DNA of 64,000 nt, taken from the NCBI RefSeq assembly GCF_020103725.1, contig NZ_JAHXBG010000018.1, forward strand, positions 176,266 through 240,265, in the 5' to 3' direction. Positions 6,908 through 50,304 of the stretch are shown piece by piece; within the stretch, counting starts at the first letter, position 1; every line of letters begins with the position of its first letter. Source of the DNA: Hyalangium gracile. GTDB lineage: Bacteria; Myxococcota; Myxococcia; Myxococcales; Myxococcaceae. The notes beneath the pieces were generated by a model, which was not told the DNA's origin, made no database searches, and saw only the letters and a list, made by a program, of their open reading frames with translations. Position numbers and translations under genes: made by a program.

Positions 6908-8818
6908 TCAGGGCTCGGGCCACTCCCACGCGGAGCGGTATCCGCCAGAGGCCTGCGTCCCCTCGATGAAGCGGGCGTAGAAGGCGTGGCCGCTGAGTGT
7001 GGCCGAGTCTCCCACCACGAAGAGGTGCCGCCGGGCGCGGGTGAGGGCCACGTTCATGCGGCGCAGATCCGTGAGGAAGCCCAGGTGGCCCTCGGAGTTG
7101 GAGCGGGTGAGGGTGACGAGGATGGCGTCCTTCTCGCGGCCCTGGAAGGCGTCCACCGTGTCCACCTCGACGTCCGGAGAGAGGGCCTCCACGCGCTCGC
7201 GCAGCTGGAAGGCCTGGGCGCTGTAGGGGGTGATGACGGCCAGCTCGCGGGGAGAGAGCCCCGCGGCCAGCAGCTCCTTCACGCGGGCGATGACGAGGTC
7301 CGCCTCGCCGGTGTTGAAGAGGCTCTGGGTGCTCTCCTCCACCTGCTCGTCGAAGCCCTTCCCGGCGGTGTCGAGGAAGAGGACGGGCGGTGCGTCCACC
7401 TGCGCGCCCGGGGAGAGGACGTCGGCCAGGGTGCGCTCCGCCACGCTGGCGTGGGCGCGCAGCTCGCCGCCGTACATCTCGCGCGAGGGGAAGTCCATGA
7501 TGCGGGCGTTCATCCGGTACTGCTCGCGCAGCATGCGCTTCACGCCCTCGCCGTGGTCCTGGAGCAGGCGCTCGAAGAGGCTGGTGCCGAGCCCGGCCTT
7601 GGCAGCCTCCTGGGAGAGGACGGTGGGCGGCAGCTGCTTCGGATCTCCGGCGAGGATGACCTTGGGGGCGCGCAGGAAGCCCAGCAGCGTGAGGGGCTCG
7701 GTGGCCTGGGTGGCCTCGTCGATGAGGGCGAGATCGAAGGACTCGGGGGCGAGCAGGCCGGACTGGAGGCTGGCCAGGGTGACGCAGACGACCTGGGCGC
7801 GCTCGAGCACGGCGCGCACGGCCTTGCGCTCCAGGGCGCGGGCCTCGTCCATGAGCCCCTTGGCCTCGGTGGAGGAGGCGCGGGCGTTGGAGAAGCGCTG
7901 GCGGCTGCGGCCCTGGGTGCGCTGGCGGCGCGCGTAGCCGAACAAGTCGAAGGCCTCGTCGAAGAGCTCGCGCGAGAGGATGCGGTCGGGGTGCTCCTCG
8001 ACGACGATGTCCAGGGTGTGCTCCTGGAGTCGGGCGGCGACGCGGGCCGGGTGGCCCACGCGGATGGCGCGCAGGCCCTGGTTCAGGCACAGCTCCAGCA
8101 GGTGGTCCACGGCGGCGTTGCTGGCGGCGGTGCACAGCAGGCGCTCGCCGCGCGCCACGGCCTGGACGGCCACCTCCGCGAGCACGGTGCTCTTGCCCGT
8201 GCCGGGAGGGCCGTGGACGAGGAAGAAGTCCTCGGCGGCCAGGGCGCGGGCCACGGCATCGGCCTGCTCGGGGTTGAGGGGGCGGGTGGGCTCGAGCTCC
8301 TTCGGCTTGTCGAAGCGCGGCGGCTCGTTGCCGAGGAGCACCTCCCGCTTGCGACGCTCGGCGCCCTTGTCGAGCGCCTTGACGCGATCCAGCCCGGCGC
8401 GCACGCGCTCATAGGTGACGTCGTTGGGGACGATGTCCAGGCGGAGCAGGCCCTCGTGGATGAAGGGCGGTGGGGAGCGGTCGAAGGCGAGCTGGAGGCG
8501 GGTGCGGGTGGCGCGGGAGACGAGCGCGCGAGCGGGCTCCTTGACCTCGGCGCGGCGAGGCATGACGGCGACGAGGTCGCCGTTGTTGAGCGGAGAGGGG
8601 AACGGGGCGCGGTCGGCGCGGGCGAGCGTGAGGAGGATGCGCCCGCCGAGGCCCACCTCTTCCTCGACGCTTTCCAGATCGAGGACGGACAGTCCGTGCT
8701 CCGCGCGCTCGCGCAGGGTCATGCTCTGGGCGAGGGCGGCGGAGCGGGCGCGCTCGGCATCGCGCTCCATGGCGAGGAGCCGGCCGAGCTGGTCGAAGAA
8801 GGAGACGTCGCGAGGCAT
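6908..8818 (-). CDS. Upf1/SMUBP-2-like superfamily 1 helicase
   Basis: The 636-residue protein has the layout of the Upf1/IGHMBP2/Senataxin branch of SF1 helicases. An N-terminal beta-rich part is followed by Walker A GPPGTGKS near residue 204, a Walker B of the DEATQ type near 368, GDPKQLPPT, EQYRM, TVDAFQGRE, and a final NVALTRARR motif near 596. Such enzymes translocate on RNA or DNA. I chose the ATG at 8818, which overlaps the upstream lipoprotein stop as TGATG; the frame remains open further upstream only through that gene. Translational coupling to a lipoprotein gene is odd for a nucleic-acid enzyme, so the pairing may be only organisational. Confidence 0.85.
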   Translation of the reverse strand: MPRDVSFFDQLGRLLAMERDAERARSAALAQSMTLRERAEHGLSVLDLESVEEEVGLGGRILLTLARADRAPFPSPLNNGDLVAVMPRRAEVKEPARALVSRATRTRLQLAFDRSPPPFIHEGLLRLDIVPNDVTYERVRAGLDRVKALDKGAERRKREVLLGNEPPRFDKPKELEPTRPLNPEQADAVARALAAEDFFLVHGPPGTGKSTVLAEVAVQAVARGERLLCTAASNAAVDHLLELCLNQGLRAIRVGHPARVAARLQEHTLDIVVEEHPDRILSRELFDEAFDLFGYARRQRTQGRSRQRFSNARASSTEAKGLMDEARALERKAVRAVLERAQVVCVTLASLQSGLLAPESFDLALIDEATQATEPLTLLGFLRAPKVILAGDPKQLPPTVLSQEAAKAGLGTSLFERLLQDHGEGVKRMLREQYRMNARIMDFPSREMYGGELRAHASVAERTLADVLSPGAQVDAPPVLFLDTAGKGFDEQVEESTQSLFNTGEADLVIARVKELLAAGLSPRELAVITPYSAQAFQLRERVEALSPDVEVDTVDAFQGREKDAILVTLTRSNSEGHLGFLTDLRRMNVALTRARRHLFVVGDSATLSGHAFYARFIEGTQASGGYRSAWEWPEP

Positions 8819-38275: not shown

Positions 38276-40045
38276 TCACTCCGTGCCTTTGACCTGCTTC
38301 TGCCAATGCGTGACGCCTTCGATGACCGTCATGTCACTGTCATTCGCGGCCTGCGCCATGACAACCTCGATCTTTTTCAGATCGCTCTCGAGAAAGCCGG
38401 CATGCTCGGTCAGGCCCGTCTGATGAAGCGCCTCTTTTTTCAAGTAGTACCGCGCTACGGTCAGGTCGTACTGCTCGCTGTACAGGTCGAACGACTCCAA
38501 GGAGTCATCAGCGGGGTCCCGCTGCTTGAGCAGGATCTTGTTGGGGTCCAGGCGCTTGGGGCCCCAGGGCGCGACCATGTTGTCACGTAAGGGGCCCTCC
38601 GCCGTCTTGGATGGCTGGCGCAATTGGGTGACGATGAACTTCCCAGTTCGCGACGCAGGCAGGTCAATGACGATCCGATCATATCGTGGGGCCAGGAATT
38701 CCCTGGGGGGAGCCTTCTGGGGATTCGAGCGCCACATCACCATGCGCTTAGCTTCCTTGTTGCCTTTCTCTTCCATGTAGTAGACGCGATGACCAATGAG
38801 CGAGTAGGCCTCGAGGTTGCCACTCCGGAAGCCCAGATGCACCAGCCCCAGGGTGCGCCGGTTGAGGTAGTCGAGCAGCGCGATCTGCGCGATGCGGCTT
38901 TTGATGGGCTTTAGCCTCTCCTCGACACTCAAGGTCATCAGTGAGGATTTCCATTCGAAGCGCTCCCACATCTCCGTGAGATCGATGAAGGTGGAACTCT
39001 TGCTCTCGGTTGCGAGCTTCTCCAGCTTGATCTTCTTGGAATCCAGCCACGCCCGGTCACCGCAGAGAATGACCCCCAGGCCTACTTTCTGGCATAGGGT
39101 GATGAGCTGTTTGAGGCCTCTGTAGCTGGTGTCGTGCTGCGGGTGGGGGCCTCCCTTCTTGCCTGAGAAACGAACCCAGAGAACCGCATAGCGCTTCTTC
39201 CTGAGCAGTTCGTGATCTCGCGTATCCACGCATTTCTGGATGATCTTCTCCGCGAACTTGTCGAACTCGATCAGGCTCAAGCCTTTCATTCCCCACGACT
39301 CACGCATCGCCCCCACGATTTGGCTGCGTTTGGCCTTCTGGACAATCTTCGTGCCCTCGCTCACCTCCGTGAAGTGCTCCTTGGACAGAGGCTCTGACAC
39401 AACCGACGTGGTGGCACTCGTGCCCCCGGACACGCCGGACATCAAGCCGGTTGGGGGAGAGTCCTTCAGGAGGCCCATGGCTTTCTGGGCTCGGGACTTC
39501 TTGTCGTCACGCTCGCCGGTTTCCTTGAGCTTGTATGCATTCAGGGTGACATATTGAATGGCTACCTCGTCACCCTGCGAGACAAGGGGATAGGCAGCGT
39601 TCAGGCTCTTGACTGGAAGCAGGAGGATACGGCCACGCTTCACGGAGGACGACGAGAACAGAGCCACCATCTCCTTGGCCTTGCAGCGACCGTTAGGGTC
39701 CTTCGCGGAGATGTAACTCATGACTGTTGGGAAGGCCTCCCGATACCGCTCCACCTTTTGGGCGAACACTTCCCGGGGGTCCCGCTGCTTTCTCGGCTCC
39801 TTCGCTTTTCCCATCGCATCTGCGCTCACGGTGGTGCTCGCAGGGAGTTGTTGGGGAAGCACAGGGGGTTCTTCGGGAAGCACAATCGGGTGCACTGGCA
39901 CCTGGTCGGTGGCCAGGGCTGAATCGGTAGCGAACTCCACCTCTTCGAGGATCAAGACGCTCAATTCCGGGTCGAGGAGCAGTCCCGCCAGCACCCCAAA
40001 CATGTCGCCCGTCATATTGCCGGCGACCACCAGAAATCGTTTCAT
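38276..40045 (-). CDS. Large hypothetical protein with possible GT-B-like C-terminal half
   Basis: The protein of about 589 residues (603 codons from an ATG at 40084) is Lys-rich and visibly less G/C-biased than its neighbours, which suggests horizontal transfer. It opens with a Rossmann-like strand (MKRFLVVAGNMTGDMFG). A disordered stretch spans about 55-85. The second half shows a nucleotide-sugar transferase-like flow: YRGLKQLITLCQKVGLGVILCGDR, quoted in part, then LGFRSGNLEAYSLIGHRVYYME and RIVIDLPASRTGKF. GxxSGxxEAYSLxGH-type segments occur in GT-B enzymes, so a glycosyltransferase or effector-like toxin is possible. No immunity gene or secretion marker is visible. It is flanked by gene remnants. 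Confidence 0.6.
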   Translation of the reverse strand: MKRFLVVAGNMTGDMFGVLAGLLLDPELSVLILEEVEFATDSALATDQVPVHPIVLPEEPPVLPQQLPASTTVSADAMGKAKEPRKQRDPREVFAQKVERYREAFPTVMSYISAKDPNGRCKAKEMVALFSSSSVKRGRILLLPVKSLNAAYPLVSQGDEVAIQYVTLNAYKLKETGERDDKKSRAQKAMGLLKDSPPTGLMSGVSGGTSATTSVVSEPLSKEHFTEVSEGTKIVQKAKRSQIVGAMRESWGMKGLSLIEFDKFAEKIIQKCVDTRDHELLRKKRYAVLWVRFSGKKGGPHPQHDTSYRGLKQLITLCQKVGLGVILCGDRAWLDSKKIKLEKLATESKSSTFIDLTEMWERFEWKSSLMTLSVEERLKPIKSRIAQIALLDYLNRRTLGLVHLGFRSGNLEAYSLIGHRVYYMEEKGNKEAKRMVMWRSNPQKAPPREFLAPRYDRIVIDLPASRTGKFIVTQLRQPSKTAEGPLRDNMVAPWGPKRLDPNKILLKQRDPADDSLESFDLYSEQYDLTVARYYLKKEALHQTGLTEHAGFLESDLKKIEVVMAQAANDSDMTVIEGVTHWQKQVKGTE

Positions 40046-40267
40046 GCCACCGAGCATAGGCGCGCCATCCGAATGACTCAACATCCCGAGTTCTGGGGTG
40101 GCTCATTGAGGCGTTGGCTCAGTTCCCCTCCACGGCCTCGACCGGAGCTCGGTGTCCAGGCGCACGACGCCCTGCACGGCGGCCTCGGGGTTGGGCTCGT
40201 CGCGAGTCGCAGCAGGCCCGCGTGGACGAACGCCGGCTCGTCCCCGGAGAAGGTGAGAAGGTGAGGG

Positions 40268-41353
40268 TCAGGGTAGTTCCTTTGAATTCCTTTCCTTCCT
40301 CTCGCGCGGCTCCTGCTCCGCGCTCAGCAGGAAGGACTCGCTCCACTGGAGCCCCGCCTTCAAGGCGCTCTCGCGAATCCAATACGCCACCGGAATGGGG
40401 GCGCCCTGGAGCAGCCCCATGACGGGCACGCTCTGCTGCTGCACATAGGGATTCGTGAGGGGATCGCGGAAGGGGTAGGGATCGTTGACGAGGTACCACG
40501 TCTCGGCGGAGCTCTTCAGGTAGCCGGTCACCAGCGCGGCGTGCATGGGCGGGAGGAAGCGATGGAGGCTCGCCGGGAGGGCGGATGGAGCGCCTGGGCT
40601 GAGTCCCACCACGATGGGATTGCCCTGCTCGAGCTCTTGAATCATCTGGCTGGCGGGGAGCACGGGCGCGCCGGCGGCGTAGAGCCTGGGAACCGGGCGA
40701 CCGCTGGCGGCGAGCCTGCGGGGAACACTCGTCAGCATCCCCGCCACCTCGACGGAGCTGCCACCGCTCATGGACTCACAGGGGCTGCAGTTGGACTGAC
40801 ACTGGAACTGCTCGCTGCCCGAGAACAGCGCGCGGACGATGTGGCACTGGGCGGAGGAGTCCACGGTGTCCTTCGCGACGACGACGCCATAGTGGCGGAA
40901 GACCATCTCCCCGACGGTGATCCAGCTCCAGTGGGGCTGCGCCTGGGCCCGGGGCGCGATCGGCAGCGTCTTCAGCTGAAGGTCCGAGAGGCGCTGGAAC
41001 TTCGCGGGGCAGGAGAGCGGCCCCTGGGTCAGGGTGGCCGACCAGGTCGCGCCGTCGAGCGCTCCCGCGAGGACGACCTGATAGTGCTGGGGCACGCTCG
41101 CGGTGACGCGGAGCTGCGCCTCGTTCACCGTGACGGACTTGAGCTCCGCGGAGATTCCCGGCCGCGGCGAGCTCATGAAGCCCTGGAGCCCCTGAGGGCC
41201 TGGGGCCATCAGCACATGGATCGTGAAGATGTTCGGGGGCTGCTCGGGAGCCGAGGAGGGAGGAGGACAGCTCACCTTGCCCTCCCAGTGTCCTTCCACA
41301 GAGGGCGCGGTTGCCACCACCGTGGCGAGCGAGAGGGACAGGAGCAGGCTCAT
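40268..41353 (-). CDS. Exported papain-like (C39/C70-type) protein with Ser for catalytic Cys
   Basis: This 361-residue protein has a signal peptide (1-16) and a beta-rich first domain to about 130. A papain-like domain follows from the QPHWSW motif (139-144). Family members have Q...WCWAA at this place; here Ser143 (codon AGC) replaces the nucleophile. The His region is present as PPMHAALVTGY near 268 and the NDP motif as YLVNDPYPF. Several Cys (170, 185, 189, 192) suggest disulfides. It should be inactive as a cysteine protease, though a Ser nucleophile cannot be excluded. It may bind peptides or act as an inhibitor-like decoy. Confidence 0.78.
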   Translation of the reverse strand: MSLLLSLSLATVVATAPSVEGHWEGKVSCPPPSSAPEQPPNIFTIHVLMAPGPQGLQGFMSSPRPGISAELKSVTVNEAQLRVTASVPQHYQVVLAGALDGATWSATLTQGPLSCPAKFQRLSDLQLKTLPIAPRAQAQPHWSWITVGEMVFRHYGVVVAKDTVDSSAQCHIVRALFSGSEQFQCQSNCSPCESMSGGSSVEVAGMLTSVPRRLAASGRPVPRLYAAGAPVLPASQMIQELEQGNPIVVGLSPGAPSALPASLHRFLPPMHAALVTGYLKSSAETWYLVNDPYPFRDPLTNPYVQQQSVPVMGLLQGAPIPVAYWIRESALKAGLQWSESFLLSAEQEPRERKERNSKELP

Positions 41354-44175: not shown

Positions 44176-44323
44176 CACGGGCTGGAGCCGGCCCATCCGC
44201 GGTGATCCGGGCTGGCGCATGAGGACAATGAATCTGGCGTGTGCGGTCAATGCGCGCGCACGCCAGCTCGTGCGACGGTCTCTCCAGGCGCGGCCCTCCC
44301 GCGCTCAAACCCCGGAGCACACC

Positions 44324-44497
44324 ATGGATAAGCGTCCCCTCGTCCTCGAAGAGCTCGAGCACCCTGTCGCACCGCCCACCGCCGACGTCGCAGCGCTCGC
44401 ATCGGTGAGCGTCGGGAGTCCCTCCACCGCGGTCATCGTCCTCAAGGCCACCGCGGTGAGCGTCCCCATTGCGGCCACTTCCCAGCTCATCGGCTAG
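44324..44497 (+). CDS. 57-residue peptide, candidate precursor of a modified peptide
   Basis: A 57-codon gene with strong G/C third-position use starts at ATG 44324, seven bases after GGAG. The N-terminal half is charged (MDKRPLVLEELEHP) and reads like a leader. The C-terminal half (about 25-57) is almost only Val, Ala, Ser, Thr, Ile and Gly, with one Lys and no Cys. Hydroxylatable or dehydratable Ser/Thr and Val residues abound. Two cupin-HEAT proteins follow in the same direction after 61 bases. This layout is that of a RiPP precursor and its tailoring enzymes, but no known RiPP maturase is nearby. A longer ATG start at 44219 is possible but has no ribosome site. Confidence 0.55.
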   Translation: MDKRPLVLEELEHPVAPPTADVAALASVSVGSPSTAVIVLKATAVSVPIAATSQLIG

Positions 44498-44558
44498 GAG
44501 AAGCGCGGGCGCTGGCCCGAGCCACCTCCAGGCCGGGCCAGCGTCCCTCGAGGACGCC

Positions 44559-45395
44559 ATGCGAGCCACTCCCCATGACGACGCGCTCGCCGGCTTCAGC
44601 CAGGCCTGCGAGCGCCAGACCCGAGATGACGCCGAAGGCATCCTTGGATGCGCCGGTGCGCTCTCGGCGCTCCTGGGCCATGGCGTCTTGGAGGGCTTTC
44701 TGGCCGGTGGGCTCGAGCGCCTGCTCTCCGAGCCCGAGTTCGTGCCCGCCTCCGTGGGCGGTGCACTCGTGCTCGCGCGGGGCCGTCGCTGGCGGCTGGC
44801 GCTCCAGGTGCTCTCACCGGGAGCCAGGCCCGCCACCGTGGAAGGGCCCGCCGAGCACCTGCTCGTTGGAGCCATGGGGCCCGCGCCGCTGGAGGTCGAG
44901 CGCCATACCGAGGAGCCGGTCGCGCGTGATGATGTCTTCGACCCCGGGCGGCGGCTCCTCCCCGAGGCGTCTCGGACGCTGCTGCGAGGAGACGTCCTCG
45001 TGCTCGCGGCTGGGCGCGACGTGTGCGTGCCCAGACCCACGGCCCCGACGGTGATCGTCTCCGTGAGCGCCGGGCCGGTGAGACCGCTGCGGTGGTTCTA
45101 CGACGGCACGACGTGTCGCGCCGTGCGGGCCGTCGCGGGCGATCCGACGGCCTCACGCCTCGAGCTGACAGCCGAGCTCCTGGCCGAGCTGGGCGGCGCG
45201 GCGGCGGCTCCCACCCTCATCCAACTGACCGAGCACCCGGCGCATCACGTGCGCTGGAGCGCCCTGCGCGCACTCTCACGGGTCGATACAGGCGCGGCAC
45301 AGGATCGGCTCCAGCTCGCCGCCGACGACCCGCATCCCCACATCCGCACGGCGGCCCGTCGCACGCTCGCCCGGCTCGCGGAGTCGCTCACATGA
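44559..45395 (+). CDS. Cupin-like/HEAT-repeat protein 1 (metal ligands not evident)
   Basis: This 278-residue protein is a distant paralogue of the next gene's product. A helical N-terminal part is followed by a beta-rich, cupin-like region (ALVLARGRRWRLALQVL, then RTLLRGDVLVLAAGRD), and the end has HEAT-like repeats (LTEHPAHHVRWSALRALSRVD, quoted in part, and DPHPHIRTAARRTLARL). The H-x-H metal motif seen in its partner is absent, so it may be a non-catalytic subunit. GAGGA lies upstream of the ATG, and its stop overlaps the next start (ATGA). The HEAT part could hold the peptide encoded upstream. Confidence 0.55.
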   Translation: MRATPHDDALAGFSQACERQTRDDAEGILGCAGALSALLGHGVLEGFLAGGLERLLSEPEFVPASVGGALVLARGRRWRLALQVLSPGARPATVEGPAEHLLVGAMGPAPLEVERHTEEPVARDDVFDPGRRLLPEASRTLLRGDVLVLAAGRDVCVPRPTAPTVIVSVSAGPVRPLRWFYDGTTCRAVRAVAGDPTASRLELTAELLAELGGAAAAPTLIQLTEHPAHHVRWSALRALSRVDTGAAQDRLQLAADDPHPHIRTAARRTLARLAESLT

Positions 45396-46204
45396 GCCAG
45401 CTCAGCCCCCACGCCACCGACGCGGTGCTCGGCCTGGAGGACTTCCTCGAGCGTGTCGAGCGCGAGATCGACTTCGATGCGCCGGACGGCCTGCTCGCCG
45501 CCACGCCGCTGCTCTCCGCGCTGGCCAATGATCGCCACTTCCTCGTCGAGCGTCTGAACGCCGAGCTCGCCTCCGGTGACTTCCAGCCCGGCAACGAGGC
45601 CACCGCCGCCACGCTGCACCTGGCGACGCGAGCTCGCTTCTTCGTGCGCGCCAACATCTGGATGCCCTGGGCCGCCTCGGGTCCCGCCCGGGACTGGCAG
45701 CAGCAGCTCTTCTTCTACGACGTGCCGCACGACCATGACCTCGACTTCCTCACGGTGGGCTACCACGGCCCCGGCTACGAGACCGACCTGTGGGAGTACG
45801 AGCGCGCCTCCATCGTCGGGCGGCCCGGAGAGCCGGTGGTACTCACACCGCGCGGGCGCTTCCGCCTCTCGAGGGGCACGGTGATGCACTACCGCGCGCA
45901 CGTGGATGTGCACACCCAGTGGCCGCCCGAGGCGCTCTCCGTATCCATCAACCTGGTGTCTCGAACGCGGCGCCATCGCTGGGAGCAGCTGCTGTTCGAC
46001 GTGGAGCAGGGGAGTGTCCGAGCGCCGGTCGAGGGGGCGAGCCGAGCCCGCGCGACCCTCTGCATGGCGGCGGCACAGCTCGGAGATGCCCGGACGGCGG
46101 CCCTGCTGGAGCGTGTCGCGTACGAGCGCCCCTGTGAAACGACACGCCTCGCGGCGCTCGACGGGCTCGCGAACCTGGAACCGAGCCACGGCGAGCGCCT
46201 CTGA
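45392..46204 (+). CDS. Cupin-type (probable metal-dependent oxygenase) HEAT protein 2
   Basis: The 270-residue protein has a cupin core with HDHD at 113-116, followed by LTVGYHGPGYETDLWEY. The second beta half has VMHYRAHVDVHTQWPPEALS (quoted in part), giving His113, His115, Glu130 or Asp132, and His166, His170 or His174 as metal ligands. This fits a cupin oxygenase or hydroxylase, although it could be a sensor. The C-terminus shows HEAT-like helices (LGDARTAALLERVAYERP). It overlaps the upstream paralogue by four bases. The two proteins are probably a complex that acts on the small peptide. Confidence 0.6.
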   Translation: MSQLSPHATDAVLGLEDFLERVEREIDFDAPDGLLAATPLLSALANDRHFLVERLNAELASGDFQPGNEATAATLHLATRARFFVRANIWMPWAASGPARDWQQQLFFYDVPHDHDLDFLTVGYHGPGYETDLWEYERASIVGRPGEPVVLTPRGRFRLSRGTVMHYRAHVDVHTQWPPEALSVSINLVSRTRRHRWEQLLFDVEQGSVRAPVEGASRARATLCMAAAQLGDARTAALLERVAYERPCETTRLAALDGLANLEPSHGERL

Positions 46205-46237: not shown

Positions 46238-47161
46238 CTACAGCCGATAGGCCGCTCCGATGGCGTCCATGCGCGCGCTCTGGCCAGGGGTGAAGCCCGT
46301 CTTGCAGGAGTCGTCCGTGGAGTCCATGTAGTTGCGGATGGGGTCCGTGCCGCCGCCGGGGCAGCTGTCCCGGTTGACGGGGCAGCCGAAAGCGGGGCTG
46401 GCCTCCGCGGCCGTGTCCGCCACGCCATCGCTTCCCGTGCACCCCGCCTCATACGTGTGCAGCACTCCGAACCAGTGCCCGACCATGTGGACGAGCGTCG
46501 CTCCCCGGTTGAAGGGGGCCTCGGCGCCACCCGGCAGGGACGCGTAGCTCACGACCACGCCATCCATGGTGGGCCGGGCGGAGAGCTCCCAGGGGTAGCT
46601 CGACCAGCCCAGGCTCCCGTCCTGCGGGGCCATGGTGTAGATGTTCAACGACCCCGGGCCTCCCTTCTTCAAGGTGTGCTTCATGGTGGCCTCATTGCCA
46701 GTGCCCTTGAGCAGCCTGAACCACGACGGGTTCGTCGTGCGATCCAGCCAGACCAGGTCGAACCGATAGGGGGTGTTGGCGAAGGCGGTGTTCAGCACGG
46801 CCATCTGGTCGTAGACCTGCTTCAGGGTGACCTCTCCGTTGTAGGACTCCAGGCCTTGCCGGATGACGTGGAAGTAGACAGGGACGGTGACGGAGCCGTT
46901 GGCCCGCGCCGCGCGCAGCACGCGGAGCTGCTGGTATTCGTCCTCCAGCTTCGCGAACTCCTCCGAGGTGAAGTCCGGCGCGTCGCAGAGATCGTCTCCC
47001 TCCTGCATGCGCCGCGCGATCCCTGACACCTCGACCGCCTCGTCCTCGGGAGCACCTTCGGGCGAGAGGAGCGTTGCGTCACATCCCGTCATCAAAAGCG
47101 CGGACGCCAGCGCCATCATCAGGGAGTGCTTGAAGAAACACGTATCTCGATACACTTGCAT
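46238..47161 (-). CDS. M43-like metalloprotease lipoprotein with lost catalytic Glu
   Basis: The 307-residue protein has a lipobox LLMTGC and a pappalysin (M43) type protease domain. The zinc motif is HMVGHWFGVLH near residues 224-234, where M43 enzymes have HExxHxxGxxH. The catalytic Glu is thus Met (codon ATG), while all three His are intact. The Met-turn region NYMDSTDD and conserved cysteines are present. The protein should still bind zinc but not cleave peptides. GGAGAGATCG precedes the ATG. It converges with the cupin operon and is divergent from the sigma operon. Confidence 0.82.
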   Translation of the reverse strand: MQVYRDTCFFKHSLMMALASALLMTGCDATLLSPEGAPEDEAVEVSGIARRMQEGDDLCDAPDFTSEEFAKLEDEYQQLRVLRAARANGSVTVPVYFHVIRQGLESYNGEVTLKQVYDQMAVLNTAFANTPYRFDLVWLDRTTNPSWFRLLKGTGNEATMKHTLKKGGPGSLNIYTMAPQDGSLGWSSYPWELSARPTMDGVVVSYASLPGGAEAPFNRGATLVHMVGHWFGVLHTYEAGCTGSDGVADTAAEASPAFGCPVNRDSCPGGGTDPIRNYMDSTDDSCKTGFTPGQSARMDAIGAAYRL

Positions 47162-47486: not shown

Positions 47487-48002
47487 GTGGGTCCCGAGGA
47501 ACTCTCAGCGCTGTACGACAAGTACGGCTATTGCCTTCACCAGCGCTGTTTGCTCCTCCTGGGCAACCGAGCGGATGCGGAGGATGCCGTCCAGGATGTC
47601 TTCGTGCGCGTGCGCAGCTACCAGAGCTCGCTCAAGGCGCCCGTCACCCTGGCCTGGCTCCATGCCATCGCCAACCATGTCTGCTTCGACCGGGCGAAGC
47701 GCCGGGCCCGGGAAGAGCCCCGTGAGCCCCCCGAGCTGGCCGAGCTGGACCCCCGACGACTGGGCGCTCCGGAGGATGCGGACCGCCGTGCCCTCGTCTC
47801 CTCCGTGATGGGGCAGCTCGACCGCCGCATGCGAGACATCGTCATCCTCCACCACATCGAGGGGTGGACCCAGGAGGAGATCGCGGCCCAGACAGGCTAC
47901 TCGCGCCGCACCGTGGGCAAGAAGCTCGCGAGCTTCGCCGAGCTGCTGCGCGAGCGGTGGCGGAAGTTTCGGAAACTGTCATCCCCGGAGGTGACGCCAT
48001 GA
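47487..48002 (+). CDS. ECF RNA polymerase sigma factor (second)
   Basis: The 171-residue protein has region 2 (about 5-72, with AEDAVQDVFVRVRSY) and region 4 (115-165, with RMRDIVILHHIEGWTQEEIA, quoted in part). The GTG at 47487 has AGGA just upstream. Its TGA overlaps the anti-sigma ATG (ATGA). The operon continues through a caspase-barrel protein, so the sigma factor may control a proteolytic or death-like response. Confidence 0.9.
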   Translation: MGPEELSALYDKYGYCLHQRCLLLLGNRADAEDAVQDVFVRVRSYQSSLKAPVTLAWLHAIANHVCFDRAKRRAREEPREPPELAELDPRRLGAPEDADRRALVSSVMGQLDRRMRDIVILHHIEGWTQEEIAAQTGYSRRTVGKKLASFAELLRERWRKFRKLSSPEVTP

Positions 48003-48739
48003 AGCCCTTGCCCGCTCCGCCCCGTGGCCCCGGCTGTCCTCCCGTGGTGGTGCTCGAGTACATGGCCGCGGGAGACGCCATCGAGCCCGGCATTGCGGAG
48101 CACGTTGCCTCGTGCGCGGCGTGCACGGAGCACCTCCACGCCCTCACGCAGGCGAGCGAGGCGTACCGCCGCTCCCATCCTCCCGAGCAGTTCTTGCGCA
48201 AGCTGGATGCTCGCCGGAGTCCCGCGCCAGCCTGGAGACGCTGGCTGTTCGCCCCCGTCGCTGCAGGTGCCTGCATGGTGCTCCTGGCGGTCCTGTTCAT
48301 GCCGGGGAGCAACGAGGTCCGCTTGAAGGGACGGACGGAGTTCGGTGTGTATGTGAAGCGCCCAGGGGAAGCCTCGCCCCAACCGCTGGCCTCCGGTGCG
48401 AAGGTCCGCGCGGGCGAGGTGCTGCGCTTCCACTACCAGCCTCCGAGCGATGGCTGGCTCCTGCTCATCAGCGTCGATGGAACGGGGCGGCTCACCGTCT
48501 TCCATCCCTACCAGGGCAGCGCCGCGGCACGGGTGGCTGGCGGCACCCTCTCGGTGCTGGAAGAGAGCATCGCGCTCGATGACGCCCCAGGGCCCGAGCG
48601 TCTCGCTGCCATCTTCAGCCCGGAGCCCTTCACCGTGGAGGAACTCCGGGCCTGGCTGAGCAGCCCCTCCTCTGGCGCGCCGCGCATCGACTGCCCGCGC
48701 TGCCAGGTGGACTGGGTCGTCCTCGAGAAGAGCCCATGA
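47999..48739 (+). CDS. Zinc-finger anti-sigma factor with periplasmic DUF4384-like domain
   Basis: The 246-residue protein has a zinc-binding anti-sigma motif HVASCAAC (His35, Cys39, Cys42), one membrane helix (about 83-103), and a periplasmic domain. That domain has a DUF4384-like flow (GEVLRFHYQPPSDGWLLLISVDGTGRL, quoted in part, then FHPYQG), often found with caspase-like proteins. A CPRCQVDW motif lies near the end. It should hold the sigma factor and sense envelope stress. It overlaps both neighbours by four bases. Confidence 0.88.
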   Translation: MKPLPAPPRGPGCPPVVVLEYMAAGDAIEPGIAEHVASCAACTEHLHALTQASEAYRRSHPPEQFLRKLDARRSPAPAWRRWLFAPVAAGACMVLLAVLFMPGSNEVRLKGRTEFGVYVKRPGEASPQPLASGAKVRAGEVLRFHYQPPSDGWLLLISVDGTGRLTVFHPYQGSAAARVAGGTLSVLEESIALDDAPGPERLAAIFSPEPFTVEELRAWLSSPSSGAPRIDCPRCQVDWVVLEKSP

Positions 48740-50304
48740 AGCTGCCGGGATTGGTGGTGATCCTCGCGGTGCTGCTCGCGGGCGAGGCGTGGGCGGCCCC
48801 GGTGCGCTTGCTGGTGTCCATCGGCAACAACGTGGGAGACCCCACCGACGTGCCGCTGCGCTATGCCAACGCGGACGCCCGCCGCTTCCACGAGGTGATG
48901 CTGGAGCTGGGGCAGGTGCAGTCGACGCGGGCCTATCTGCTCGAGGGCGCCACGGTGGAGCAGGTTCGCGCCGCGTTCACCGAGGTGCGCGGGCGGGCGG
49001 CCGAGCTCGCCGCCTCGGGCGCGGAGGTCACGCTCTTCATCTATGTGTCGGCCCACGCTCGAGCGGGCCAGGTGCACCTGGGCGGGGGCCACCTGCCGCT
49101 GGCGGAGCTGCGCGAGCTGGCGAGGCGGGTGGCCGCGCCGCTGCGGGTCCTCATCCTCGACACGTGCGAGAGCGGCATCGTCGCGCGGCGGAAGGGGGGC
49201 AGGCTCGTCTCCGGCTACGAGCTGAGCCTGGAGCGGTTGCCTCTCAGGGGCGAGGTGCTCATCTCCTCCAGCGGGCCTGCGGAGTCCTCGGAGGAGTGGG
49301 AGTCGCTGGCGGGCTCGCTCTTCACCCACCACCTGCTGACGGGCCTGCGAGGCGACGCGGATGTGAACGGGGACGGCCAGATCACGCTGGCCGAGGCCTA
49401 CAGCTACTCGTACCGGCGTACCGTGTCCGCCGCGGCCCGGGGCTCGCAGCACCCCGTGGCGGACATCGATCTGAGCGGCGCGGGAGAGGTCGTCCTGACC
49501 GAGCCGCTGCGCCACCGGAGCGCGGTGATCTTCCCGCCTGCCTCGGAGGGCTCCTTCACCGTGTCGAGCCAGCCCGAGCCGGATGTGCTGCTCGAGGTGG
49601 ACAAGCGGGCAGGGCGCGTGCTGCGCCTGGCGGTACCGCCGGGACGGTACGTGGTGCGCAAGCGCCTGGGCTCGCGCGTGGCGGTGGCCACCTTGGAGCT
49701 GCCGTATGGAGGAGAGCTCACCGTGGACGAGCGGGCCATGGTGGAGCGCGGCTGGATCGAGGTGGCGGTGAAGGGAGGCTATGTCGACCTGCGCGCCTCC
49801 ACGCTCCTGCTCGTGGGAGGGTTCCAGTCGGGGCCCATCCCCCAGACGGGAGCCCGGTGGCGAGCAGGCGTCGGGTACCGCCACACCTTCGGTGAGTGGT
49901 GGTGGAAGGCGGGTGTCTCGGCACAGCGCGCCACCTATGCCGGCGTGGGCCTGGACATCTCCGAGCAGAGCCTGCTCGCCCAGGTGAGCTTCGGCTGGCG
50001 GTACCTGGGCTGGCCGCTCGCTCCGTATGGGGGACTGGGTTTGCGCTCGCTGACGCTGCGCCAGAGCTTCACGCGAGCCCAGGAGGAGCGCATCCAACGC
50101 GCCTTCGGGGTGAAGGCCCTGCCTGAGCGATGGGGCCAGGGCCTGGGGCCCGTGGGGGTGGCCGGTGTGGAGATCCCTCTGGCGGGCAACGCCCTGGCGC
50201 TGCTCGAGGCCAGCGCCGAGCTGCGCTACCTCCCGCTGGAAGGTGACGCCTCGCCCTGGAGGACGGGGGCCGGCGTCGAGGCGGCGGTGGGGTGGCGATT
50301 CTGA
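48736..50304 (+). CDS. Exported caspase-fold protease with C-terminal beta-barrel
   Basis: The 522-residue protein has a signal peptide cut after AWA (20). A peptidase C14/metacaspase-like domain spans 24-240, with the dyad His107 (YVSAHARAG) and Cys144 (ILDTCESG). An EF-hand-like loop DVNGDGQITLAEAY lies near 207-220, suggesting calcium control. A beta-rich PEGA-like part (about 270-345) and an OmpA-like barrel (350-522, ending VGWRF) follow. The protein should sit in the outer membrane with its protease part in the periplasm. It is coupled to the anti-sigma gene by ATGA. SAHA in place of SGHG is a mild deviation; the dyad is intact. Confidence 0.88.
   Translation: MKLPGLVVILAVLLAGEAWAAPVRLLVSIGNNVGDPTDVPLRYANADARRFHEVMLELGQVQSTRAYLLEGATVEQVRAAFTEVRGRAAELAASGAEVTLFIYVSAHARAGQVHLGGGHLPLAELRELARRVAAPLRVLILDTCESGIVARRKGGRLVSGYELSLERLPLRGEVLISSSGPAESSEEWESLAGSLFTHHLLTGLRGDADVNGDGQITLAEAYSYSYRRTVSAAARGSQHPVADIDLSGAGEVVLTEPLRHRSAVIFPPASEGSFTVSSQPEPDVLLEVDKRAGRVLRLAVPPGRYVVRKRLGSRVAVATLELPYGGELTVDERAMVERGWIEVAVKGGYVDLRASTLLLVGGFQSGPIPQTGARWRAGVGYRHTFGEWWWKAGVSAQRATYAGVGLDISEQSLLAQVSFGWRYLGWPLAPYGGLGLRSLTLRQSFTRAQEERIQRAFGVKALPERWGQGLGPVGVAGVEIPLAGNALALLEASAELRYLPLEGDASPWRTGAGVEAAVGWRF

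Follow-up and report, generated by a model that had tools for sequence, protein, structure and literature searches.

The locus described here poses a plain question: what does a very short gene do directly in front of two longer ones whose products are related to each other? It lies in a stretch of 64,000 nucleotides from Hyalangium gracile, called the window throughout, and the original prediction had read it, from the letters, as a RiPP-like system. The three genes, A, B and C, share one strand and form a tight operon for proteins of 57, 278 and 270 residues, with a 4-nt overlap between the stop codon of B and the start codon of C (ATGA). The features are as follows, residue counts referring to the alignments of 53 peptides, 64 B proteins and 97 C proteins introduced below.

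44314..44317, + strand: GGAG, candidate ribosome-binding site for A, seen in the sequence 6 nt before the ATG
44324..44497, + strand: gene A, 57-aa precursor-like peptide (P0001), an ORF with leader-PSSM rank 1 and coding-like GC
44333..44389, + strand: leader-motif block of A, residues 4-22 (RPLVLEELEHPVAPPTADV), with every motif position except the Gly, from the alignment and column counts of 53 peptides
44390..44494, + strand: putative core of A, residues 23-57, Val/Ala/Ser/Thr-rich and free of Cys, behind a putative leader/core border
44559..45395, + strand: gene B (P0002), 278 aa, catalytically degenerate protein of predicted thiol-dioxygenase fold that ends in a HEAT segment
45144..45389, + strand: HEAT part of B, residues 196-277, with R232 in 64/64 and W233 in 63/64 B proteins
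45392..46204, + strand: gene C (P0003), 270 aa, cupin of predicted thiol-dioxygenase fold with three histidines and a short HEAT segment at its C-terminus
45728..45736, + strand: H113-D114-H115 of C, H113 and H115 being predicted metal ligands, both His in 97/97 C proteins
45911..45913, + strand: H174 of C, predicted third metal ligand, 97/97 C proteins
46037..46177, + strand: HEAT helices of C, residues 216-262, from DSSP on the model, with HEAT_2 in 14 of 21 C relatives at E <= 0.1

The ORF of A is present as claimed, with a charged front half and a back half rich in Val, Ala, Ser and Thr that lacks Cys, and its GC by codon position (0.72/0.51/0.82) resembles that of the neighbouring genes. 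A search of A against 5.8 billion proteins returned a single candidate, A itself, hence the small ORFs in relatives were read from DNA. As this left A without a close relative, pN/pS was computed on related peptides and not on A itself. Upstream of the trio lies an ORF with a Big_14 domain, and no exporter or maturation protease is evident among the neighbouring ORFs scanned beside it. Downstream of C, and convergent with it, is a Peptidase_M43 (pappalysin-like) gene (window 46238-47146, - strand). From 1.3 kb beyond the trio, positions 47487-50304 (+ strand) encode consecutively an ECF-type sigma factor, a sub-cut-off DUF4384 protein and a caspase-domain (Peptidase_C14) protein, and two further ORFs of the window, 38276-40084 (- strand, 602 aa) and 40268-41353 (- strand, 361 aa), have no Pfam match at E <= 0.001.

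That the peptide is followed by two related proteins is borne out by profile-profile comparison, where B and C match over most of their length with probabilities of 98.6 (local) and 99.3 (global); on this sequence evidence they are paralogues. Each had been predicted to combine a cupin-like core with HEAT repeats, and both proteins are modelled with both parts, but the description needs refinement, as the cupins are specifically of a predicted thiol-dioxygenase fold and yet lack the catalytic triad of these enzymes. The predicted models of B and C are confident and present a cysteine-dioxygenase-fold (thiol dioxygenase) cupin including the N-terminal helices, the 50 structural matches listed being thiol dioxygenases and their kin. 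HEAT repeats are detected in B by PF13646 at an E-value of 1.8e-8 and in C at 0.087 only. Sequence families say less about the cupin: C stays below every Pfam cut-off and has no NCBIfam match at E <= 1, while the CDO_I and PCO_ADO Pfam families are absent for P0002 and P0003 at E <= 1 and for 21 C proteins at E <= 0.1. When the sequences of the PDB were searched with the C profile, matches up to E 0.15 fell on the HEAT part and the three weakest (E 0.67-0.95) outside it. Comparison with the CDO profile yields a probability of 95.5 for B and 13.6 for C; since the latter match is weak, the ligand mapping of C rests on fold and conservation. It should be noted that sources label some sphingomonad members 'transposase', a label that nothing in the model supports.

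The division of labour between the two proteins is read from their conserved residues. A protein search finds 340 C relatives, and the C alignment has 97 rows taken from at least 120 listed of these homologues; the B alignment contains 64 proteins chosen from 78, with some B starts set by length. H113, H115 and H174 are present in 97/97 C proteins, together with the further invariant residues R86, W90, G128, Y129, D172, Q176, N187 and Q199. Conversely, HxH occurs in the matching region of only 1/64 B proteins (that of locus L014), and the B column aligned to H174 holds a His in 4/64, hence the claims that only the second protein keeps the HxH motif, and that an active second protein stands beside an inactive first one, are supported by residue conservation. 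The mean top-residue fraction is 0.59 in the cupin of C vs 0.49 in its HEAT part, and 0.43 in the HEAT part of B vs 0.31 in its cupin, a pattern that would suit catalysis by C and recognition by B. C nevertheless departs from canonical thiol dioxygenases: S-x-H-x-Y, their catalytic triad, was found within 60 residues after H174 in 0/97 C proteins and in 6/6 CDO proteins of the window's phylum (6 of 12 CDO loci in its genomes), and the alignment to the CDO profile is, as said, weak. In MDO the triad is Ser155/His157/Tyr159, according to PMC10966181.

Of 378 pattern matches in a genome scan, 360 encode C relatives, and the best 80 of these 360 loci were used below. They come from Nevskia, Xanthomonas, Dyella, Lysobacter, many Sphingomonadales, Bradyrhizobium, Chromobacterium and Alteromonas, further from Streptomyces, Mucilaginibacter, Dyadobacter, Flavobacterium, Hymenobacter and Blastopirellula, and include MAGs titled Acidobacteria, Verrucomicrobia and Eremiobacterota. 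B stands beside C in 78 of the best 80 loci, across several phyla; 76 were seen by profile, L002 has its B within a longer ORF that lies some 0.3 kb upstream of C, and L020 shows it by tblastn only. Neither profile nor tblastn detects B in L034 and L042. The B profile matches 49/50 held-out ORFs and 4/2172 other ORFs, of which one is the B of L002 and three are additional copies in L071 and L076, and the latter two loci, apart from their extra B-type copies, also contain a second C-like tblastn match. Outside these 80 loci, a metagenomic C (P0004) is 87% identical to that of the window, two plasmid records match C, and the search in phage records gave no match. Among close relatives C is found in 1/59 genomes, the window's own; a scan of 195 genomes of the phylum, with 12 candidates per genome scored, gave matches in 16, full length in the window's own only and restricted to profile positions 208-295 (the HEAT part) in the other 15. 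Since full-length C is thus found in 1/195 phylum genomes, it was probably acquired horizontally, judging by this sequence distribution.

The search for triplets shows that a homologous small ORF does recur: a peptide with a common motif is found at the B-C pair in 71 of the best 80 loci, 52 by inspection, 18 of the 28 remaining ones by PSSM, and L057. In 67 loci it lies before B on the same strand. The leader motif is [LIV]-x-x-L-[DE]-x-x-[VT]-[AG]-x-x-G-[SA], followed by a variable hydrophobic tail, and in 53 aligned peptides its columns hold L in 48, V/T in 46, G/A in 43 and G in 44. These 53, the seeds of the PSSM, are 52 relatives and the window peptide, picked by eye and partly on position and look, while 28 loci were kept out of training; the 18 matches in these untrained loci include near-copies of seeds (e.g. 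L063, L067, L046 and L059). No motif peptide was found by PSSM and recheck in 9/80 loci (L020, L034, L036, L040, L042, L044, L052, L060 and L062), nor by PSSM in the two plasmid loci, although L112 does have small hydrophobic-tailed ORFs. In the other plasmid locus, from Vibrio (L113, 5063-6619, + strand), the 59-aa peptide that follows a shortened B-C pair (C of 225 aa) differs in its C-terminal half (GRCGGATLRW); the locus may represent a variant without HEAT that goes with a different kind of peptide. The record titled Bacillus sp. 2B10 (L072) has almost the same peptide as Sphingomonas L080 and L058, and may be mislabelled or contaminated.

How far the choice by eye can be trusted is seen from a leave-one-out PSSM, which excludes anything at least 50% identical to the tested peptide. 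The chosen ORF ranks first among its six-frame competitors (median 71) in 48/53 cases, and 47/53 exceed their shuffles at p <= 0.01. First rank is missed by L005 (rank 4, p 0.19), L070 (rank 2), and L024, L025 and L076 (rank 2), and in the last three the winning ORF holds another motif peptide. The p threshold is missed by L005, L026, L028, L037, L043 and L069, the weak peptides being L005 and L026 (p 0.08), with four more at p 0.014-0.024. For the window, where the PSSM was trained solely on sequences less than 50% identical to A, the ORF ranks 1/63 among six-frame ORFs within 4 kb with a shuffle p of 0.005, hence the peptide is more than a chance occurrence. Scores of at least 20, from the PSSM that includes the 53 seeds, are reached by 69/1589 same-strand ORFs near the pair vs 2/12193 elsewhere, and these two (in L002 and L023) also resemble motif peptides. 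All 16 close peptide pairs tested have pN/pS of 0.00-0.22, therefore the related peptides concerned are translated and under purifying selection. The condition named as refuting the original prediction, no homologous small ORF beside such pairs or a frame that is not conserved, thus does not hold: the peptides show a conserved leader motif, a variable hydrophobic tail and, in the related ones, a frame under purifying selection.

The peptides measure 39-63 aa (5th-95th percentile). Their tails have a mean GRAVY of 0.79 vs 0.11 on the leader side and are the more hydrophobic side in 54/73 peptides, the best 12-residue stretch of the core reaching a median of 2.36. Ala (71 of 73 cores), Val (67), Leu (67) and Ile (64) come close to being universal, Ser is found in 57, Tyr in 42 and Cys in 24, and no residue type is common to all 73; a subset of peptides shows a V-G-G-x-x-C motif ahead of the hydrophobic run. 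Core identity is 0.32 at 40-60% leader identity (with an optimistic aligner), 0.47 at 60-80% and 0.77 at 80-95%, i.e. nearly identical leaders come with similar cores. Several loci depart from one peptide before one pair: L017, L024, L025 and L076 have more than one, two Xanthomonas loci (L013/L027, +971) and L002 (+3317) have it downstream, and Dyella monticola (L023) has it on the opposite strand. Such multicopy, downstream and other-strand peptides are as expected of a precursor on which enzymes act in trans, and do not suit a uORF that regulates in cis.

We therefore return to the RiPP-like system of the original prediction. It is favoured by the precursor-like peptide at 71/80 pairs, the leader and tail anatomy and the purifying selection on related peptides, while the type of cupin has to be changed. 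We assign a probability of about 0.62 to a RiPP-like reading of the trio, with C proposed to oxidise the peptide and B to help in recognising the precursor. The proposed mechanism would run as follows. B and C would form a complex and act jointly on A, whose leader, [LIV]xxL[DE]xx[VT][AG]xxG[SA], would be recognised, perhaps via the HEAT part of B. Iron would be held at the three His of C, which would use O2 to oxidise a position other than a thiol, within the hydrophobic core or close to it; the product would be cleaved and exported by ABC-type exporters where these are adjacent. Hydroxylation of the core, as in the original prediction, would be a speculative form of this step. Simple thiol oxygenation is disfavoured because cores have no common residue, the window core is Cys-free and S-x-H-x-Y is absent. 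Since no residue type is universal in the cores, the modified site is unreadable from sequence; oxidation may fall on aliphatic residues or on the backbone, the chemistry may vary by subfamily, or it may be non-oxidative.

Exporters of this kind are usual for peptide natural products. Near the pair we find HlyD, ABC and MacB/FtsX genes before it and ABC plus an ABC-2 permease after it on an Alteromonas plasmid (L112), ABC plus HlyD in Dyadobacter (L033), HlyD in Xanthomonas (L027) and in L023 and L076, ABC in L024 and L066, and C39-ABC in Bradyrhizobium (L052), a locus where, however, no motif peptide was found. These exporter loci (within 9 kb) were picked for showing such genes, without a background rate. 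In 22/81 loci (the 80 and the window) ORFs that cluster with ABC ATPases are present at a distance of up to about 9 kb, weak evidence, as the cluster includes doubtful ORFs and has no background rate. It had also been claimed that no known RiPP maturase is present, which holds for the ORFs scanned beside the window trio but not for Mucilaginibacter (L004), where LanC-like, MacB/FtsX and C39-ABC genes are near the pair. In that locus the LanC-like gene and the B-C pair flank a 60-aa ORF (8542-8724, + strand) whose product ends in CTGFLCCDPNPPTPITSELCP and is possibly a lanthipeptide-type precursor sharing the locus. Directly 3' of the pair in L028 (10886-12076, + strand) is a gene whose flavin amine-oxidase-like product (PF01593) might serve as a second tailoring enzyme.

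The explanation that competes best retains a metal centre and drops the oxidation: C would need its metal for a reaction other than oxidation, as an isomerase, lyase or hydrolase, or the B-C pair would be a peptide carrier with bound metal, any modification of the peptide proceeding without O2. Cupins as a class catalyse many reactions and the triad is absent from 97/97 C proteins, both in line with this idea, but the 50 structural matches listed are O2 users, and we regard it as rather unlikely. Somewhat less probable still is that the small ORF encodes a hydrophobic toxin or a peptide akin to bacteriocins, with B and C as immunity, antitoxin or chaperone proteins and not maturases. The hydrophobic tails, with the GRAVY values given above, do look membrane-active, and exporter-type genes lie near some loci; however, immunity proteins usually diverge fast, whereas the three His together with R86, W90, Y129, D172, Q176, N187 and Q199 are invariant in 97 C proteins, which argues for catalysis, and one B-C pair can serve several peptides.

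Very improbable is the view that C acts on the peptide as a thiol dioxygenase and converts a Cys of the core to the sulfinate. The predicted fold would suit it, enzymes with that fold (ADO and the plant cysteine oxidases) are reported to use the N-terminal Cys of proteins as substrate, and VGGxxC recurs in a peptide subset; yet Cys is found in 24/73 cores only and not in the window peptide, and the triad is lost. As a general rule Cys oxygenation is refuted by the Cys-free cores, while it could hold for the VGGxxC subset. Finally, a role of the ORF as attenuator, its leader peptide regulating the B-C operon, is hardly credible, for although a short ORF does lie directly upstream of the operon in the window, the amino-acid motif is conserved across phyla with purifying selection on related peptides, and cis action does not allow peptides that are multicopy (four loci), downstream (L013/L027, L002) or on the other strand (L023).

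The RiPP-like reading may also be set against known systems. With thiol dioxygenases (CDO, 3-mercaptopropionate and mercaptosuccinate dioxygenase, ADO/PCO) B and C share the predicted fold, N-terminal helices included, and C has three invariant His whose alignment near those of CDO is weak (13.6). They differ in that C has neither S-x-H-x-Y (0/97 vs 6/6 in CDO) nor a CDO_I match, and that the trio adds a HEAT tail, a recurring active/inactive pair and an adjoining peptide gene. Crocagin, whose producer is a myxobacterium, is by analogy the nearest in logic, its biosynthesis using paired homologous peptide-binding proteins beside the precursor. These are CgnB, with a metal centre, and CgnE, in which no iron was detected; encoded next to the RiPP precursor, both work with CgnC, a predicted dioxygenase (PMC10070186). 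CgnB and CgnE differ from B and C in their similarity to aminopeptidase T; they had no Pfam match in that study, a separate protein serves as the oxidase, and the text, which names neither cupin nor HEAT, discusses oxidation at core Tyr and Trp, not at aliphatic residues (PMC10070186). A homology of CgnB/CgnE to B/C was dropped, given the other fold described there (PMC10070186). An aminopeptidase-T-like fold is not among the 50 structural matches listed for the B or C model.

MNIO (DUF692) enzymes have a fold other than that of B and C. Their systems resemble the trio in that an iron enzyme with a dedicated partner works on a precursor peptide, as in Pbs (PMC12257519) and TglHI (PMC10880893), but Pbs (PMC12257519) and Tgl (PMC10880893) act on defined aromatic or Cys residues, whereas B-C cores show no fixed residue. 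PbsQ, a cupin-like RiPP hydroxylase related to the JmjC-domain BpmG, offers a cupin-type hydroxylation of a precursor side chain (Orn), as described in PMC12257519. C differs from PbsQ and JmjC proteins by its three His, its thiol-dioxygenase fold and its pseudoenzyme partner. JmjC enzymes have HxD...H and use 2-oxoglutarate. Among the titles and abstract openings of the literature matches listed, with subscription papers outside, no HEAT/cupin or HEAT/thiol-dioxygenase pair with a precursor peptide is described.

The trio is likely an undescribed route of chemically finishing a peptide before its use outside the cell. A bolder version, which we put forward only tentatively, is that of a new and widespread RiPP class in which an active/inactive thiol-dioxygenase-fold heterodimer with HEAT tails oxidises unactivated aliphatic positions of hydrophobic precursors, a thiol dioxygenase having been turned, in this proposal, into a non-thiol peptide oxygenase. 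Its interest would lie in a testable case, namely a thiol-dioxygenase fold that has lost the triad and faces Cys-free peptides, with the pseudoenzyme partner and the HEAT tail as candidate recognition parts. If true, the RiPP class would be recognisable by one gene pair, B-C, found among the best 80 of 360 loci in Pseudomonadota, Bacteroidota, Streptomyces, Acidobacteria and other records, and a few hundred clusters would become minable at once.
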